A stretch of 64,000 nt of DNA, taken from Gammaproteobacteria bacterium. GTDB taxonomy: Bacteria; Pseudomonadota; Gammaproteobacteria; JAJPIJ01. This document shows positions 16,893 to 26,638 of this stretch, piece by piece. How positions within the stretch are numbered: the first letter of the stretch is position 1; each line of letters begins with the position of its first letter. The stretch is taken from assembly GCA_022072255.1 (NCBI GenBank), contig JAJVHZ010000026.1, positions 69,300 to 133,299 of the forward strand, written 5' to 3'. The translations under genes were made by a program, and so were the position numbers. The notes beneath the pieces were generated by a model. It saw nothing but the letters and a program-made list of their open reading frames with translations. It was not told the DNA's origin and did not search any database.

Positions 16893-17645
16893 ATGAATGA
16901 CGACAGCTTGACGATCATCCGCCCTAAGACAGGGGCAGAACATCCCGATCCGTGGGCCGAGGTCCCGTTCGAGCCGGCGTTTTTTTCTCCGGGTACGCGC
17001 CTGCTGCCGTCCCTGCCGGTCACCGGCTGGCGGCAACGGTATGCAGAGCACCTGGGCTTCCACGTCACGACCAGGAATCGCGACCTGCTCGCGCACGTGC
17101 GCCGCGTGCTGCTGTGGGCTGCAGCCGGCAACCGCCAGGCCACCTACCGCGCTCTCGCCGACCTCTTCCAGGTGCTGGGCACCAAGGGCCTGGAGTTGCG
17201 CAAGGATATCCTGCAGAGAGTGGCCCCCGTGCTGGCGCCCTCTCAGGTCAGCAGCCTGCGCGCGCAGTTGGCGGTGACCGAGACCGTCACCAGCATGTTC
17301 GACCTGCCCACCTCGCGCTTTGCGCCGAAACGCTCCGCCAAGCTGGTCACCCTGGGTGCCCGCGCGAACCGGATCCAGAGCGGCGCACGGGGGCCGCTCG
17401 GCGAGGCACGCGAATACCTGGAGAACGGGCAGGTCGAGGAGGCCAGACAGGTCCTCGAGGCTGCCCTGCCCCTGCACGCGCACGACACCGACATGCACCG
17501 CGAACTCCTGGAAATCTACCGGCGGGCGCGCGACCTCGACGGCTGCCAGTCGATGTTCAGCAAGATCGATGTCAAGGACAGCGCTGTGGAGAAGGACTGG
17601 CTGGACACCCTTTCCCTGCTCGAGGGTTCTGCCGCGGGCCGATAA
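16893..17645 (+). CDS. TPR-containing protein with FimV C-terminal-like repeat region
   Basis: AAGGAGG SD at 16877-16883 ahead of ATG 16893; LGEAREYLENGQVEEARQVLEAALPLHAHDTDMHRELLEIYRRARDLDGCQSMFSKI reads as TPR helices similar to FimV. Confidence 0.6.
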   Translation: MNDDSLTIIRPKTGAEHPDPWAEVPFEPAFFSPGTRLLPSLPVTGWRQRYAEHLGFHVTTRNRDLLAHVRRVLLWAAAGNRQATYRALADLFQVLGTKGLELRKDILQRVAPVLAPSQVSSLRAQLAVTETVTSMFDLPTSRFAPKRSAKLVTLGARANRIQSGARGPLGEAREYLENGQVEEARQVLEAALPLHAHDTDMHRELLEIYRRARDLDGCQSMFSKIDVKDSAVEKDWLDTLSLLEGSAAGR

Positions 17646-17651
17646 CTGCCG

Positions 17652-18926
17652 TTGCCGTCCATGCCGACATCCACACCCATCCGCTTCGACCTCATCGGCG
17701 CCAACGATCGCACGCGCAACGCCCTGCAGATGGCGTTCGCCGGTCGTGCCAGGGGCAGTTGCGAGTTCGCCAACGGAGACGCGGCCGACGCGGTCATCGT
17801 CGACCTGGACGGGATCGGCGCGCGCACGGAATGGAGCAGGTACCGTCACCAGCATCCGCAGCGCCCGAGCGTGCTGCTGACGGTCAACGACTGCACCGTG
17901 CCGGAGACGGCGATCGTGCTCATCAAGCCGATACGCATCGAGGCCCTGCTGAGCGCCGTGGACGACGTCCGCCGCCGGATCGAGACCGGCGACATCGACG
18001 CCCCGGGGATCACGGTGCGGGCGACAACCGAGACGGTCGTTGGACCCGGCGGTCCGACGACCCGGATCACGGCCACGACTCGCCCCTCCAAGCGCGAAGC
18101 GACAGCGACCTCGCAACCCACCAGCGGCTCGCAGGGTCGCCGGGCAGTCGCTGCCTCGTCGTCGGCTGCGGCGTATCCCGCGCCGTCGAAACCCGCCCCA
18201 CCGTCGGGGCCAGAACCCGTAAGGGATTACCGCGACGTATGCGGCCATCTCCCGGATATCAACTGCGAGGACCTCGAGCAGGTCCGACAACGCTCCTTCG
18301 ATGCCGAGGGAACGCTGCTCGACTGGCTGCGCCGTGCTCAGATCCGCTCCGACAATATGCGCAAGCCGATCGGCCTGAACATACAGGACAAGGACGTGGC
18401 CACCGTCTCCAGCGTGGAGCGCGTAGCCAGGGTGATCCTGAGCGACGAGATACTGAGGAGCAACGCCGCCAAGCGATTCATTGCGAGCCAGGTGCGCATG
18501 ACGGAGATTGCCTCCGACCCGCCGCCGGCCACGCAAAAACTCGCCGAACCCGTGAGTCTCGAGGCACTGCTCTGGAAGATGGCGCTGTGGACGTACAAGG
18601 GGCGTCTGCCCGCGGGAACCTCCGTCAAGGAGCGGGTGTACCTGCGGCGCTGGCCCAACCTGCCGCGTCTGCTCGAGGTCCCGGATGCCATGCGGATCTC
18701 CGCCCTGCTGGTCGAACAGCCGCTCGCCCTCGCGCGCGTGGCCGAGGCGCTGCAGATCCCGCAACGCCACGTCTTCGCGTTCTATGGCGCGGCACAGGCG
18801 GCGGGCCTCGCGAACCACGCCAAGCGCGAGGCGGACAATCTGCTTGCCAGCGTGCCGCCGCGCAAACACGTGGAGCGTAGTTTCATCAATCGCGTCGTCG
18901 GCCGCCTGAAGCGGCTGGTGGCCTGA
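17652..18926 (+). CDS. Receiver-like N-terminal domain plus C-terminal winged-helix-like protein, function unknown
   Basis: N-terminus RFDLIGANDRTRNALQMAF...AVIVDLDG...VLLTVND...VLIKPIR resembles a receiver fold (Asp and Lys positions); C-terminal MRISALLVEQPLALARVAEALQIPQRHVFAFYGAAQAAGLA resembles a helix-turn-helix. Confidence 0.6.
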   Translation: MPSMPTSTPIRFDLIGANDRTRNALQMAFAGRARGSCEFANGDAADAVIVDLDGIGARTEWSRYRHQHPQRPSVLLTVNDCTVPETAIVLIKPIRIEALLSAVDDVRRRIETGDIDAPGITVRATTETVVGPGGPTTRITATTRPSKREATATSQPTSGSQGRRAVAASSSAAAYPAPSKPAPPSGPEPVRDYRDVCGHLPDINCEDLEQVRQRSFDAEGTLLDWLRRAQIRSDNMRKPIGLNIQDKDVATVSSVERVARVILSDEILRSNAAKRFIASQVRMTEIASDPPPATQKLAEPVSLEALLWKMALWTYKGRLPAGTSVKERVYLRRWPNLPRLLEVPDAMRISALLVEQPLALARVAEALQIPQRHVFAFYGAAQAAGLANHAKREADNLLASVPPRKHVERSFINRVVGRLKRLVA

Positions 18927-18947
18927 CGGGCAGCCACGAACCTCGCC

Positions 18948-20450
18948 ATGACGGGCTCTACACTGCCTATCGGCTTCAACTTGAAGGAGTACCGAATCGA
19001 CAAGGTGCTCGGCAAGGGCAACTTCGGAGTCACCTATCAGGGCTGGGACACCCACCTGCAGACGGCGGTGGCCATCAAGGAATTCTATCCGAGCGAGTTC
19101 GTCACCCGTGACCCGAAAGGCGGCGGCAGCGTGCTGCTGAAATCGGAGGAATTCAGCGAGCTGTACAAATGGGGCCGGCAGCGCTTCATCGCAGAGGCGC
19201 AGGTGCTCGCCCGGTTCCGGCACCCCAACATCCTGCGCGTGGCGCGATTCTTCCCGGCCAACCACACCGCCTACATCGTCATGGACTTCGAGGGTGGGCA
19301 GACTCTGAGCGAGGTATTGCGCGCGGCAAAGGAGCCCCTCTCCGAGCAGCAGTTGCGCGCCATCTTCCTGCCCCTGCTGGAAGGGCTGCGCATCGTCCAC
19401 GAGAAGAAATACCTGCATCGCGACATCAAGCCCGCGAACATCCAGATCCGTCATGACGGCACGCCGCTGCTGATCGATTTCGGGGCCGCCGAAATGGAAT
19501 TCGGGAGCAGCAGCTCGGAGGACGTGCAGGTGCTCACGCCGGGCTATGCCCCGATCGAGCAGCACTCCCCCGACACCCCGCAGGGACCATGGTCGGATCT
19601 CTACGCCGTCGGCGCGACGCTATATCGCTGCATCAGCGTCGGTCCGCCGGTCGACGCGGCGCAACGCCAGCGAGCTGCCGAGGAGCACAAGACCGACCCG
19701 CTGGTGCCCGCCGTCACGCTCGGCAACGAGCGGTACAGTGACAAATTCCTGCGGATCATCGACTGGATGATGCAGCTTCGCGCAGAGGACCGCCCGCAGT
19801 CGGTCGGCGACGTGATCGCTCGCCTGCGCGGGGAAGGCGAGGCCCCCGCCGTCACGGGCGGCACCACGTTTTCCTACGTTCCGAAGCGCGCCGCCCGCAA
19901 CTTCAAGATCGTGTTCGCCGGCCCTGTCGGTGCGGGCAAGACGACCGCGATATCGGCGCTCAGCGACATACCGCTGGTCAACACCGATGCTCGGGCGCGG
20001 GACATGACCCGCAGCCGCAAGGCCACCACGACCGTGGCGATGGATTACGGACTGATGCGTTTGTCGGACTCCGAGCGCGTGCACCTGTACGGAACGCCCG
20101 GGCAGGAGCGATTCGATTTCATGTGGGACATCCTGCAGACAGGCGCGCTCGGACTGGTGATCCTCATCGACAACTCGCGCAAGGAGCCGATGAAGGATCT
20201 GGACTTCTATCTTGATGCCTTCCATTCGCTGATCCAGCGCAGCCGCGTTGTCATCGGCGTCAACTTCACCGGCGCCACACGCAGGCCCGATGTCGACGAC
20301 TATCACCGCCACCTGAGCGATGGGCAGCGCAGGCTTGCGATCAACGCGCCGATATTCCAGATCGATGCGCGCCGGCGCGGCGATGTGTCGATGCTGGTAC
20401 AGGCATTGCTCTTTTCAATCGACCCTGGCGTAAAGGACTATCATGTCTGA
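18948..20450 (+). CDS. Ser/Thr protein kinase fused to a small Ras-like GTPase domain (COG2229/MglA/CvnD-like)
   Basis: Kinase: YRIDKVLGKGNFGVTY, VAIKEF, YLHRDIKPANIQI, LLIDFGAAE, PGYAPIEQ. GTPase: FAGPVGAGKTTAISALSD (P-loop), HLYGTPGQERFDFMWDIL, VVIGVNFTGA. Confidence 0.88.
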   Translation: MTGSTLPIGFNLKEYRIDKVLGKGNFGVTYQGWDTHLQTAVAIKEFYPSEFVTRDPKGGGSVLLKSEEFSELYKWGRQRFIAEAQVLARFRHPNILRVARFFPANHTAYIVMDFEGGQTLSEVLRAAKEPLSEQQLRAIFLPLLEGLRIVHEKKYLHRDIKPANIQIRHDGTPLLIDFGAAEMEFGSSSSEDVQVLTPGYAPIEQHSPDTPQGPWSDLYAVGATLYRCISVGPPVDAAQRQRAAEEHKTDPLVPAVTLGNERYSDKFLRIIDWMMQLRAEDRPQSVGDVIARLRGEGEAPAVTGGTTFSYVPKRAARNFKIVFAGPVGAGKTTAISALSDIPLVNTDARARDMTRSRKATTTVAMDYGLMRLSDSERVHLYGTPGQERFDFMWDILQTGALGLVILIDNSRKEPMKDLDFYLDAFHSLIQRSRVVIGVNFTGATRRPDVDDYHRHLSDGQRRLAINAPIFQIDARRRGDVSMLVQALLFSIDPGVKDYHV

Positions 20451-21117
20451 GTACGAACTGATCTCCAATGCTCACGTGGGCGTCACTCCCGCCGGCGCCT
20501 ACTACGCCGCCTCGGGGCGCGATCCCACGGCGGCCCGAACGCTGCTGTTCGCGCTGATGGCGCAATCGCTGACACCGACATTGACGGCGGAGAAGGTCTG
20601 TCAGTGGGCGCAGACCGACAACGAAGACGAAGCGGCGGAATTGCTTTACCGGATGCAGAGCGTGGGATGGATAAAGGGTCTGCGCGCCGCGCAGACCGCA
20701 CCGGAGACGCACATGGAACGCGACGTTCCCGGCCTGCTGAAAGAACTGGCGGTCGACGGTCGCGCGTTGCTCGCCGATTCGCAGGGATTCTTCCTCTCCG
20801 CCAGCGGCTTTGCCCACGAGACCGCGGAGGCGCTCGGCGCACTTGCCGCCGATATCGGTGCCGTGGCCTCGCGACACGACGGTCTGGTCCGCGAGAACCT
20901 CGGCATCGATTCGGCCGCCTGGTCCGTGGTCGACGCGGCCGGTCACAGCCGCATGGGGTTCTGGCCGTTGTTCATAGGCAACCAGCATTTCGTGCTCGTG
21001 GTGAGCGGCGAGCCATGCCTGCACCGCACCGCCTTCGCACACCTGGTGTGGGGGCTCACACGCCGATACGCCGGCGAACACGACACCTCGCGCCGCGCGA
21101 GCACCATCAGGCAGTAG
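20443..21117 (+). CDS. N-terminal winged-helix-like/C-terminal roadblock-LC7-like protein
   Basis: 8-nt overlap with the kinase-GTPase gene; RALLADSQGFFLSASGFAHETAEALGALAADIG matches the roadblock beta-hairpin/helix pattern. Confidence 0.6.
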   Translation: MSEYELISNAHVGVTPAGAYYAASGRDPTAARTLLFALMAQSLTPTLTAEKVCQWAQTDNEDEAAELLYRMQSVGWIKGLRAAQTAPETHMERDVPGLLKELAVDGRALLADSQGFFLSASGFAHETAEALGALAADIGAVASRHDGLVRENLGIDSAAWSVVDAAGHSRMGFWPLFIGNQHFVLVVSGEPCLHRTAFAHLVWGLTRRYAGEHDTSRRASTIRQ

Positions 21118-21148
21118 AAACTGGAATCGAAACCCGGAGCCACATCGT

Positions 21149-21511
21149 ATGCGTGAAGAAATGATCCGTTCCATCCTGAGCGACCTCAACGGCAGCTCCG
21201 CCGATATCACTGCCTCGGCGGTGATCTCAACGGACGGCTTGATGATCGCCAGCCTGCTGCCCGCCAGCATGGACGAGGACCGCGTCGGCGCCATGAATGC
21301 CGCGATGCTGACGCTCGGCGACCGCAGTGCCGCGGAACTCGGGTGCGGCGCGCTCGAGCAGGTGATGGTCAAGGGCAAGGACGGCTACATCCTGATGACC
21401 CACGCGGGGGAGGACGCGGTCCTTTCCGTTCTCGCCCGTCCGAGCGCCAAGCTCGGGCTCATATTCCTCGACGCCCGGCGCGCCGCCGAGGGCATCGCCA
21501 AGCTCCTGTAG
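21149..21511 (+). CDS. Roadblock/LC7 (MglB-like) domain protein
   Basis: ITASAVISTDGLMIASLLPASMDEDRVGAMNAAMLTLGDRSAAELGCGALEQVMVKGKDGYILMTHAGEDAVLSVLARPSAKLGLIFLDARRAAEGIAKLL. Confidence 0.85.
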   Translation: MREEMIRSILSDLNGSSADITASAVISTDGLMIASLLPASMDEDRVGAMNAAMLTLGDRSAAELGCGALEQVMVKGKDGYILMTHAGEDAVLSVLARPSAKLGLIFLDARRAAEGIAKLL

Positions 21512-21562
21512 GTCCGAAGTTCGTACGGGACCGGCAGTACAAATCGATCTGGAGAACACCCC

Positions 21563-22789
21563 ATGGCCGTATTGAGAGTTGGGATTGGACACGCAAAGAC
21601 CGCACGCGAGGCCGCCGAGACGGCGATGCAGAAGACGCCGAAGCCGGACCTCACGATCGCCTTCAGCGCCTTTGGCAAGGACCCGAAGGAGAGCTATGAC
21701 GCCATCCGCTCGGTAGTCGGCAATTCCGCGATTATCGGCGGGACCTCCTGCGGGGAGATCACCAGCGCCCTGCAGGGGCCGCAGAACGACTCCGTTGCGG
21801 TGATGACGCTACAGAGTTCCTATCTCAGCATCGGGGTGGGAGTGGGCGAGAACCTCTCGACCGATCCGAAGGCGGCCGCCGAGCAGGCTGCCGCCGGCGC
21901 GCACAAATCGCTCAAGTCCAACCCCACGGTCATGTCGCTGATGGCCATCGCCCTCGACGGCAAGAACGCCTCCGAGGCCTCGCGCCTGAAGCCTTTCGTC
22001 AACGTCATCATCCCCGACGGCTCCACGGCGCAGGAGGAGCCCTTCATGCGCGCGCTCATCAAGGAGACCGGCACGGTGGCGCAGATCGTCGGCGGCTCCA
22101 CGGCCCACGACTTCAATGCCAGCACGACCTTCCAGTTCGGCAATGGCGTCTACCAGAACTCCGCGGTGCTGGCGACCATAAGCAGCGGACTCAAACTCGG
22201 GACCGCGATGGGGCATCCCTATTTCCCCGGCACCAAGGGCGGGGTCGTTACCCGCTCGCAGGGGCGCACCGTCTACGAGTTGAACAGGCGCCCGGCCACC
22301 GAAGTTGTCAAGGAGATGCTCGGCATCAACGAGCTCAGCGGCGAGGTGTTCGCCAAGAACCCCTTCGGCATCAAGTCCTCGGACGTCTTCGCGGAGTACA
22401 CGGTCAAGAGCGTCGCCCAGCACGGCGAGGACGGCAGCCTCACTTTCTTCGCCGAGATCCCGGAGGGCGCCTACCTCCGTCACATGCAGACCGACCGCAA
22501 TTTCGCCATCGCCAGCTTCAAGAGCACGCTGCAAAAGGCTGTCAACGACGCCGGCAGCCCGAAAAAGGTGGGCGCCGTGGTCATCTTCAACTGCATACTG
22601 CGCCACCTGCTGAAAACGCGCATGGACGTGTGCGATACCAGCATCATCAGGGAGACCTTCGGCGAGGACGTGCCGGTCATCGGGTTCAACACCTTCGGCG
22701 AGCAGGGCATCACGCTGGGCGGAGCCGTCGGGCATTACAATCAAACCGCGACCGTTCTGGTCATCGGCGACGAACTGATTTCCCAGTAA
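21563..22789 (+). CDS. FIST N-/C-domain sensory protein
   Basis: Start MAVLRVGIGHAKTAREAAETAMQK; SAIIGGTSCGEI; IVGGSTAHDFNAS; PVIGFNTFGEQGITLGGAVGHYNQTATVLVIGDEL. Confidence 0.85.
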   Translation: MAVLRVGIGHAKTAREAAETAMQKTPKPDLTIAFSAFGKDPKESYDAIRSVVGNSAIIGGTSCGEITSALQGPQNDSVAVMTLQSSYLSIGVGVGENLSTDPKAAAEQAAAGAHKSLKSNPTVMSLMAIALDGKNASEASRLKPFVNVIIPDGSTAQEEPFMRALIKETGTVAQIVGGSTAHDFNASTTFQFGNGVYQNSAVLATISSGLKLGTAMGHPYFPGTKGGVVTRSQGRTVYELNRRPATEVVKEMLGINELSGEVFAKNPFGIKSSDVFAEYTVKSVAQHGEDGSLTFFAEIPEGAYLRHMQTDRNFAIASFKSTLQKAVNDAGSPKKVGAVVIFNCILRHLLKTRMDVCDTSIIRETFGEDVPVIGFNTFGEQGITLGGAVGHYNQTATVLVIGDELISQ

Positions 22790-24000: not shown

Positions 24001-24077
24001 CGGGGTATAGCTCAGCCTGGTAGAGCGTCTGCTTCGGGAGCAGAAGGTCGCACGTTCGAATCGTGTTACCCCGACCA
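24001..24077 (+). tRNA. tRNA-Pro(CGG)
   Basis: Acceptor CGGGGTA/TACCCCG, anticodon arm TCTGC-TTCGGGA-GCAGA, T arm TTCGAAT, encoded CCA. Confidence 0.96.
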
Positions 24078-24521: not shown

Positions 24522-25160
24522 ATGCGACTCGCCGTTTCCGCACTGACCATCACCATTACCTGTACGGCATCGTTCGCGACCAGGGCGGCTGTATGGGCGG
24601 AACCCTCGGGAGGCGACCTGTTCTCCAACGACGGCCTGAATCCGACGCTGGTCACCCTCGACGCGGGCGTGAACACGATACGCGGCACCACAGGCTTCAC
24701 CAACGTCGTCGATCGCGATTACTTCTATTTCACGCTCGGCGCCGGACAGCAACTCGACTCCATCTTTCTGCGGCCGGTAACGGAGGTGGGCAGCCAGGTG
24801 TCTTTCATCGGCGTGCAGTCCGGCAATCAGCTCACGGTCAATCCGACTGGCGGCAACCCCGCCGGGCTCCTGGGCTACGCGCTCTACAGTCTGGGCCAGA
24901 TCGACACGAACATACTCGACGACATCGGCAACAACATGCTGCATCCCGGCACGACCGGATTTTCCGGCCCGCTCGGGCCCGGAACCTATGCATTCTGGGT
25001 ACAGGACACCGCCTTCGGCACCTTCAACTACAACTACGAGTTCAATGTCTCGGGTGACCCGATCCCCACACCGCTGCCCGGCGCGTATCTGGCCATGCTC
25101 GGCGGTATGGGCGTGCTGGGTCTCCTGCGCCGCCGACGCGACGGTTCGCAACCCCGGTAG
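24522..25160 (+). CDS. Exported protein with a PEP-CTERM-like sorting tail
   Basis: Signal peptide MRLAVSALTITITCTASFATRAA; C-terminal PIPTPLPGAYLAMLGGMGVLGLLRRRRDG. Confidence 0.75.
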   Translation: MRLAVSALTITITCTASFATRAAVWAEPSGGDLFSNDGLNPTLVTLDAGVNTIRGTTGFTNVVDRDYFYFTLGAGQQLDSIFLRPVTEVGSQVSFIGVQSGNQLTVNPTGGNPAGLLGYALYSLGQIDTNILDDIGNNMLHPGTTGFSGPLGPGTYAFWVQDTAFGTFNYNYEFNVSGDPIPTPLPGAYLAMLGGMGVLGLLRRRRDGSQPR

Positions 25161-25371: not shown

Positions 25372-26031
25372 TCAGGCGGCGGCTCGTCGCCGACGCGCAG
25401 TGCTCATCAGGCCGGCGAGCGCGCCGCCCAACAGCCAGACTGCGGCCGGCAGCGGCACTGCCGCGGGCTGGATGTCATAGGACAGGTTGTCCAGCAGAAA
25501 GTACAGGCCATTGCTGCCGCCGGCGGTCGGCAGGAAGCGCAACTCGTCGACGACCCCGAACGCCGAGAAATCGAAGAGATCGTATTTGTCGTTCGCGAGG
25601 GCAACCGTCTGCGAACCCATCTCGACGCCGTTGTTGAAACCCTTAACCTGGACGCCGCCGGCCGACGCGCCGTAGGCCGCGTTGAACCCGGAAAACGACG
25701 TCAGATAGACGGTGTTGAAGGTGAAGTCTTCCGCGCGCTTGATGATGAGCTCCGCATTGGTATAGATCGCATTGGCGCCCGACGGGGCCCCGTAGCTGTT
25801 TCCGAACCCCGTGGTGCCGTCCATGTAGTCGGCATTCTGCATCGTCGCAGGTATCGCCGGACTGGACTCCCAGTCGAATCCGCCGTAGCCGACCGGCACG
25901 GCCTGGTCGGAGGTTGCCGGCAGGATATCGTCAAAATCGAGGATTGCCGCGCCCCCGACAGGGGCATATGCCAGCCCCAGGCCGGCAACCAATGCAAAAA
26001 CCGTATTGCTCTGTTTCATTGCTGTCCTCAT
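25372..26031 (-). CDS. Exported protein with a VPLPA-CTERM sorting signal
   Basis: Start MRTAMKQSNTVFALVAGLGLAYAPVGGAA (ORF track start 26307 too far upstream); C-terminus AAVPLPAAVWLLGGALAGLMSTARRRRAAA. Confidence 0.85.
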   Translation of the reverse strand: MRTAMKQSNTVFALVAGLGLAYAPVGGAAILDFDDILPATSDQAVPVGYGGFDWESSPAIPATMQNADYMDGTTGFGNSYGAPSGANAIYTNAELIIKRAEDFTFNTVYLTSFSGFNAAYGASAGGVQVKGFNNGVEMGSQTVALANDKYDLFDFSAFGVVDELRFLPTAGGSNGLYFLLDNLSYDIQPAAVPLPAAVWLLGGALAGLMSTARRRRAAA

Positions 26032-26638
26032 CTCTCTGCTCCAGTTCGCCATGGATTCCCGATGGATTGCCGGTTCCGCGTTGCGCCTGTACGGCTTCAA
26101 TCGCAACGGCTCTTCAACGCCGTGCACGGACCGGCACCACAAACGACCTCCAAGGCAACTGTAATTCGACGACCGGCATGCCGATGCACAATTCGTCACA
26201 CTAACGGCTGTCAAAAACTGGTCGTACCAACACGCTGAGGCGGCTCGCTGGTCACCACTTCCGAAGGACACGGCAGCAGGCGAGGCGCGTGCGACTGCAA
26301 GCGGCAATCAGGCGCATGAGGACCCGTGGCGCACTGCCACGTCGATTCCGCGATCCTCAATCTTGCGGCGGTTTCTTGACGCGCTTTTTCGAGACAATCG
26401 TCAACATAGGCCAGTGCGCCTGCCACTAACCTCTCTGTCCGAAGTGGACGGCGATGCCGCGACGCGCCGACGGAAACACAGTCGACTGCCCGTCACGTGC
26501 GTGGCCGCCTCGTGGCGGACGCCGGGCGCGCGAACGTCCGGGTGGGCGGCGCGGCGCGGGAACACGAGTCCCTACTTTCATATTCTGGAGAACCAAGATC
26601 TACCGACAGAACCCAGATCTACCGACAAGGATTGAATC

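Follow-up and report, generated by a model that had tools for sequence, protein, structure and literature searches.

A probable Group 3 Mgl-type small-GTPase operon with a lineage-specific kinase-GTPase fusion and a candidate FIST sensor

The DNA analysed here, referred to as the window, is a stretch of 64,000 nucleotides from a Gammaproteobacteria bacterium (assembly GCA_022072255.1, contig JAJVHZ010000026.1, positions 69,300 to 133,299 of the forward strand). It contains a cassette of six genes, named A, B, KG, D, E and F, the third of which encodes a Ser/Thr kinase fused to a small GTPase. A preliminary description, made from the sequence alone, had reported six co-directional and tightly packed genes, and this is borne out: all six open reading frames are found on the + strand.

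16893..17645, + strand: gene A, a tetratricopeptide repeat (TPR) protein of 250 amino acids (TPR E=2e-4, below the Pfam curated cut-offs), which opens the conserved core
17652..18926, + strand: gene B, with a receiver-like N-terminal domain (about residues 10-112), a linker and a helical C-terminal region that would fit a winged helix, according to its predicted structure
18948..20450, + strand: gene KG, a PpkA-like Ser/Thr kinase (about amino acids 1-300; Pkinase PF00069, E=1.8e-36) fused to a Group 3 MglA GTPase (about amino acids 316-500; Ras-like GTPase by Pfam, GTPase motifs)
20443..21117, + strand: gene D, with an N-terminal helical, winged-helix-like domain and a roadblock-fold domain, a second MglB-type protein (AlphaFold model, Foldseek)
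21149..21511, + strand: gene E, a stand-alone roadblock/LC7 protein of the MglB type (PF03259, E=1.3e-14)
21563..22789, + strand: gene F, a FIST_N/FIST_C protein (PF08495/PF10442, E=9.5e-32 / 3.1e-25), of the domain family to which the nitric oxide sensor NosP belongs

The intergenic gaps from A to F measure 6, 21, -8, 31 and 51 nucleotides, the negative value being an 8-nucleotide overlap of KG and D; an alternative ATG of gene B is possible at 17661. The cassette is probably best explained as a Group 3 Mgl-type small-GTPase operon with a lineage-specific PpkA-like kinase fusion and a FIST protein as candidate sensor. This degree of confidence applies to the explanation as a whole; the identity of the operon is well supported, and the signal, the output and the direction of signalling are what we infer. 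The observations comprise the gene content, its conserved order, the state of the GTPase motifs, the grouping of the kinase fusions into a single clade and the recurrence of candidate-sensor genes beside E.

Scanning genome contigs brought up 525 proteins related to the kinase-GTPase, and the best 80 loci were retained; together with loci from an even class-level sample they make up the 146 distinct loci compared here, a set enriched for relatives of that protein. Co-occurrence was assessed in 321 genomes of the class, with p values that carry no correction for phylogeny. The gene order A-B-GTPase-D-E is the rule among the 146 loci, most of which have a free-standing GTPase of ~180 amino acids; a homologue of gene A lies immediately 5' of gene B in ~90 of them, and a shorter variant, B-GTPase-E, is also seen. 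Since the full order recurs across the class, the arrangement is not due to chance. Roadblock E is present in 45/61 genomes with the GTPase vs 4/260 others (p=1.7e-36). The GTPase and B occur together in 51 genomes, the GTPase alone in 10 and B alone in 14 (p=4.9e-36). The preliminary description had named rare co-occurrence of the homologues as counter-evidence; the GTPase-roadblock module instead shows strong and conserved co-occurrence.

In gene content, motif state and taxonomy, the cassette corresponds to the Group 3 MglA systems known from beta- and gamma-proteobacteria (Wuichet & Sogaard-Andersen 2014, PMC4316618), so that its core has already been described. Common to both are the GTPase motifs, a receiver-like and winged-helix partner, one or two MglB proteins and a conserved neighbourhood; gene B corresponds to the Group 3 “protein of unknown function” (PMC4316618). 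The published set was limited to proteins of <=240 amino acids, and KG, with its 500 amino acids, therefore falls outside that survey's limit, which is not a property of the clade. A TPR gene and candidate-sensor genes are absent from the sections of the Group 3 description consulted; the window has both, the latter in the form of FIST. Those of our loci with class-level names belong to beta/gamma-proteobacteria, genome-by-genome searching having been confined to the class. Group 3 mgl operons are present in Neisseria, Snodgrassella and Xanthomonas. The best plasmid-collection match is a Neisseria gonorrhoeae record with 52% identity, vs 35-41% for actinobacterial GTPases among the matches listed. 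This record (locus L156, NZ_CP119140.1) has A-B-GTPase-D-E in order, and Neisseria is a genus named as Group 3 (PMC4316618). The 2.17 Mb record is labelled a plasmid, and in it B, the GTPase and D are split between reading frames, which sequence error or decay may explain.

Two assignments of the preliminary description, a receiver-like protein B and a winged-helix-like plus roadblock protein D, hold at the level of structure. The predicted N-terminus of B resembles CheY/PhoP-type receivers, and of its active-site columns D51 is kept in 29/31, D53 in 31/31, S/T77 in 30/31 and K92 in 31/31, the acidic pair not being conserved. No Pfam match was found for gene B, the receiver-like fold included, and its winged-helix part was deduced from predicted secondary structure alone. 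In locus L089, the receiver (B) and the GTPase are joined in one gene, which links B to the GTPase; no description of a receiver-GTPase gene fusion was found in the open-licence literature searched. The AlphaFold model of D is confident (predicted local distance difference test, pLDDT, 88); its C-terminal half matches MglB, with M. xanthus and Thermus MglB as best Foldseek matches, and the Pfam roadblock match is sub-threshold (E=0.12). Sequence homology between D and E is undetectable, their likeness existing at the fold level only. Gene E carries an invariant D29 G30, the Asp-Gly pair of coupled MglB, and is the most conserved part of the cassette, its mean column identity being 82% vs 60% for the GTPase and 50% for D. 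The closest solved relative of E is an Asgard (Thorarchaeota) roadblock protein, 7f8m, with 44% identity over 100 residues, well above CvnB5 and MglB. A FimV relationship, proposed earlier for gene A, had to be abandoned: FimV_Cterm matches are weak and occur in just 2/29 homologues, the TPR match itself being weak.

PpkA kinases are a known element of type VI secretion gene sets. Unlike PpkA, the kinase of the window is fused to a GTPase. The closest solved structure of the KG kinase is PpkA (5hnv; 211 bits, ~39% identity over 204 aligned positions), with which it has an APIEQ segment in common. The motifs VAIKE, HRDIKPAN and DFGAAE supply the catalytic Lys, HRD and DFG, and VAIKE/HRD/DFG are kept across 11 divergent fusion loci, except that no HRD pattern was found in L011. 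The GTPase part shows GPVGAGKT, TTTV (TTTVAMDYG), GTPGQ (YGTPGQERF), GVNFTGA and DAR (IDARRRGD). GTPGQ in G3 and Thr rather than Arg in G2, both present in the window, are conserved in the family; G4 is degenerate and has lost its usual Lys, and G5 is DAR, the family consensus being GVTxMD and DAR. A kinase fusion occurs in 12/146 loci, including one whose GTPase has decayed. In the GTPase tree, for which actinobacterial GTPases served as the only outgroup, the fusions of the window and L002-L011 (11 loci) form one clade together with two free GTPase copies that adjoin fused ones in L009 and L010 (Shimodaira-Hasegawa-like approximate likelihood ratio test, SH-aLRT, 98). Because the fusions fall into a single clade, the kinase-GTPase fusion most likely arose once, to judge from the sequences, with duplication occurring later. 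The fusion links the kinase to the GTPase. In L090 and L094, distantly related kinase-GTPase genes have degenerated in part, L090 having an intact kinase beside decayed GTPase motifs. Domains beyond the known fusions are clear only in L089, L090 and L094, and many other long GTPase frames look like spurious upstream extensions. A possible GTPase-roadblock fusion in L086 was not used: its C-terminal roadblock match is under the cut-off, and profile comparison did not confirm it.

Clustering of downstream genes and Pfam searches revealed several candidate sensors beside E: among the 146 loci, a stand-alone PAS protein is found in 71, a PhnD-like binding protein in 74, a protoglobin in 13 and a FIST protein in 3. 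PAS and PhnD-like genes come after gene E in about half of the relatives, and the protoglobin is inserted between D and E in some of its loci. Among the N-termini inspected, the PhnD-like proteins have no evident signal peptide. The RHPDMP...W pattern in the PAS proteins of the relatives resembles the flavin adenine dinucleotide-binding PAS domain of Aer. The three FIST loci are the window, L002 and the more distant L007; in all of them, FIST occupies the position where relatives have the PAS and PhnD-like genes, and four His are conserved among the three proteins. Precedents are the globin-roadblock fusion HGbRL (PMC4476040) and a FIST/NosP protein that binds and controls a kinase (PMC12570481). 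With NosP operons, the window shares a single protein comprising FIST_N and FIST_C beside a kinase-bearing gene, but in place of a histidine kinase the partner is a kinase-GTPase of the Ser/Thr type. These patterns suggest that the sensors may be exchangeable, with roadblock E as a putative hub for interchangeable inputs. In Halothiobacillus-type loci (L022:8140-8595, L029, L056, L080), a protein of ~150 amino acids without Pfam match is located between D and E, after the PhnD-like gene. The kinase fusion and the FIST gene, which the preliminary description stressed, are real, but neither defines the system in view of their numbers. Neither the kinase fusion nor the sensor genes turned up in the open-licence literature searched. 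Beyond the known Group 3 core, what appears to be new are thus the PpkA-like kinase-GTPase fusion (the 11-locus clade), the possibly exchangeable candidate sensors and the receiver-GTPase gene fusion.

In MglA/MglB systems, roadblock proteins regulate small GTPases, and roadblock-GTPase modules are ancient, eukaryotes having them too (Rag/Ragulator, dynein). The operon could function in the following manner: A cytoplasmic ligand would alter the sensor, plausibly nitric oxide (NO) or heme in the case of FIST; in relatives, PAS or protoglobin might respond to redox state or O2, and the PhnD-like protein to a small molecule. The altered sensor would act on the roadblock pair D/E, which may set the guanosine tri- or diphosphate (GTP/GDP) state of the GTPase domain. 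This nucleotide state would switch the fused kinase, which in turn could modify partners, e.g., A or B. The output may be type IV pilus or surface behaviour, with TPR protein A as an SgmX-like effector, and/or transcription. The TPR protein SgmX is an effector of MglA-GTP on type IV pili (PMC7519303), and mutation of an orphan mglB in the Group 3 bacterium Snodgrassella alters pilus-type motility (PMC11112851). An output on type IV pili is favoured because of this Snodgrassella effect and of an association with PilT; the window's genome has three PilT-family genes above cut-off. Compared with Myxococcus MglA/MglB (Group 1), the cassette shares the GTPase, a roadblock GTPase-activating protein, a TPR partner (SgmX) and, as a hypothesis, the type IV pilus link. 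The G2/G3 motifs differ, however, and in Myxococcus mglA is not next to response-regulator partners and there is no kinase fusion.

Several points weigh against this reading. The PilT association (61/61 GTPase genomes vs 210/260 others, p=1.6e-5) was calculated without correcting for genome size or phylogeny, and instead of a pilus output a transcriptional one through the C-terminus of gene B, as proposed by Wuichet (PMC4316618), is possible. Gene F scores 124.9 bits against the NosP model, far below its cut-off of 450, and the FIST protein is at most a candidate heme binder. The sensor-roadblock-GTPase-kinase contacts are proposed ones, the structure predictions covering single chains. In L142-L144, the GTPase gene is absent and the operon keeps the order A-B-D-candidate sensor-E, with a protoglobin or a PhnD-like protein between D and E; the GTPase thus appears dispensable to the others.

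The direction of signalling may also be the reverse. The kinase could be the input: it would receive the signal and act by phosphorylation on the GTPase, B or the roadblocks, in the place that the CvnA histidine kinase has in actinobacterial conservons, leaving the GTPase as output switch as in MglA. The published conservon model takes the GTPase as output (PMC4316618), and since no kinase is linked in most Group 3 loci, the GTPase must possess its own outputs. The FIST candidate sensor, however, is a separate protein by the roadblock, and the intact kinase next to the decayed GTPase in L090 suggests that the function kept can be that of the kinase; we consider this reversal unlikely, though it deserves the most attention among the alternatives. 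It is improbable that both features are incidental, the fusion being neutral and the FIST gene an unrelated neighbour of an ordinary Group 3 operon. The confinement of FIST to 3 loci and of the fusion to one clade would fit, but FIST has the same position in the window and L002 as in the more distant L007, and the fusion has been kept through 11 divergent loci with its kinase motifs, apart from the one missing HRD.

The preliminary description had compared the cassette to conservons (Group 2; CvnA-D). This stands as far as both have a GTPase and a roadblock in an operon, E and KG resembling the CvnB/CvnD pair, with the unusual GTPGQ G3 and DAR G5 motifs in common. Domain search of the six proteins found no CvnA-type sensor histidine kinase, and gene D shows no relation to CvnC (DUF742), profile comparison with a Streptomyces DUF742 protein giving a probability of 0.1%. 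Moreover, the window's kinase is of eukaryotic type and fused, the receiver-like and TPR proteins are extra, the gene order differs and the sequences are closer to Neisseria than to Streptomyces/Rhodococcus, which makes a true proteobacterial conservon very unlikely and leaves the core as known Group 3 MglA. A defence or conflict system, in which kinase, GTPase and TPR modules occur, was rejected as equally improbable: the kinase matches several PADLOC kinase models and gene A has one weak EAD11 match, but it is the generic kinase domain alone that matches, the other genes have no PADLOC match, toxin or nuclease are missing and the operon is conserved and syntenic.

One may tentatively generalize, with somewhat more doubt than confidence, that the Group 3 Mgl operons serve as sensing hubs of the cytoplasm in general. 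A roadblock protein that hardly varies would take the signals of interchangeable sensors (PAS, protoglobin, FIST, PhnD-like) to the GTPase, and one lineage would have a GTPase-gated kinase in a single polypeptide. Except for Myxococcus and conservons, little is known about the input signals of bacterial roadblock-GTPase systems. The candidate sensors that recur near the roadblock are concrete, testable inputs, and the kinase fusion could provide a simple biochemical readout of GTP loading.

The cassette is flanked upstream by rplU/rpmA/obgE/proB, which are divergent, and ispB follows 112 nucleotides after gene F. Just 3' of ispB lies a tRNA-Pro (cgg) at window positions 24001-24077. Two predicted exported proteins with PEP-CTERM-like C-terminal tails (VPLPAAVWLLGGALAGLM...RRR type) are encoded at window positions 24522-25160 (+) and 25372-26307 (-).

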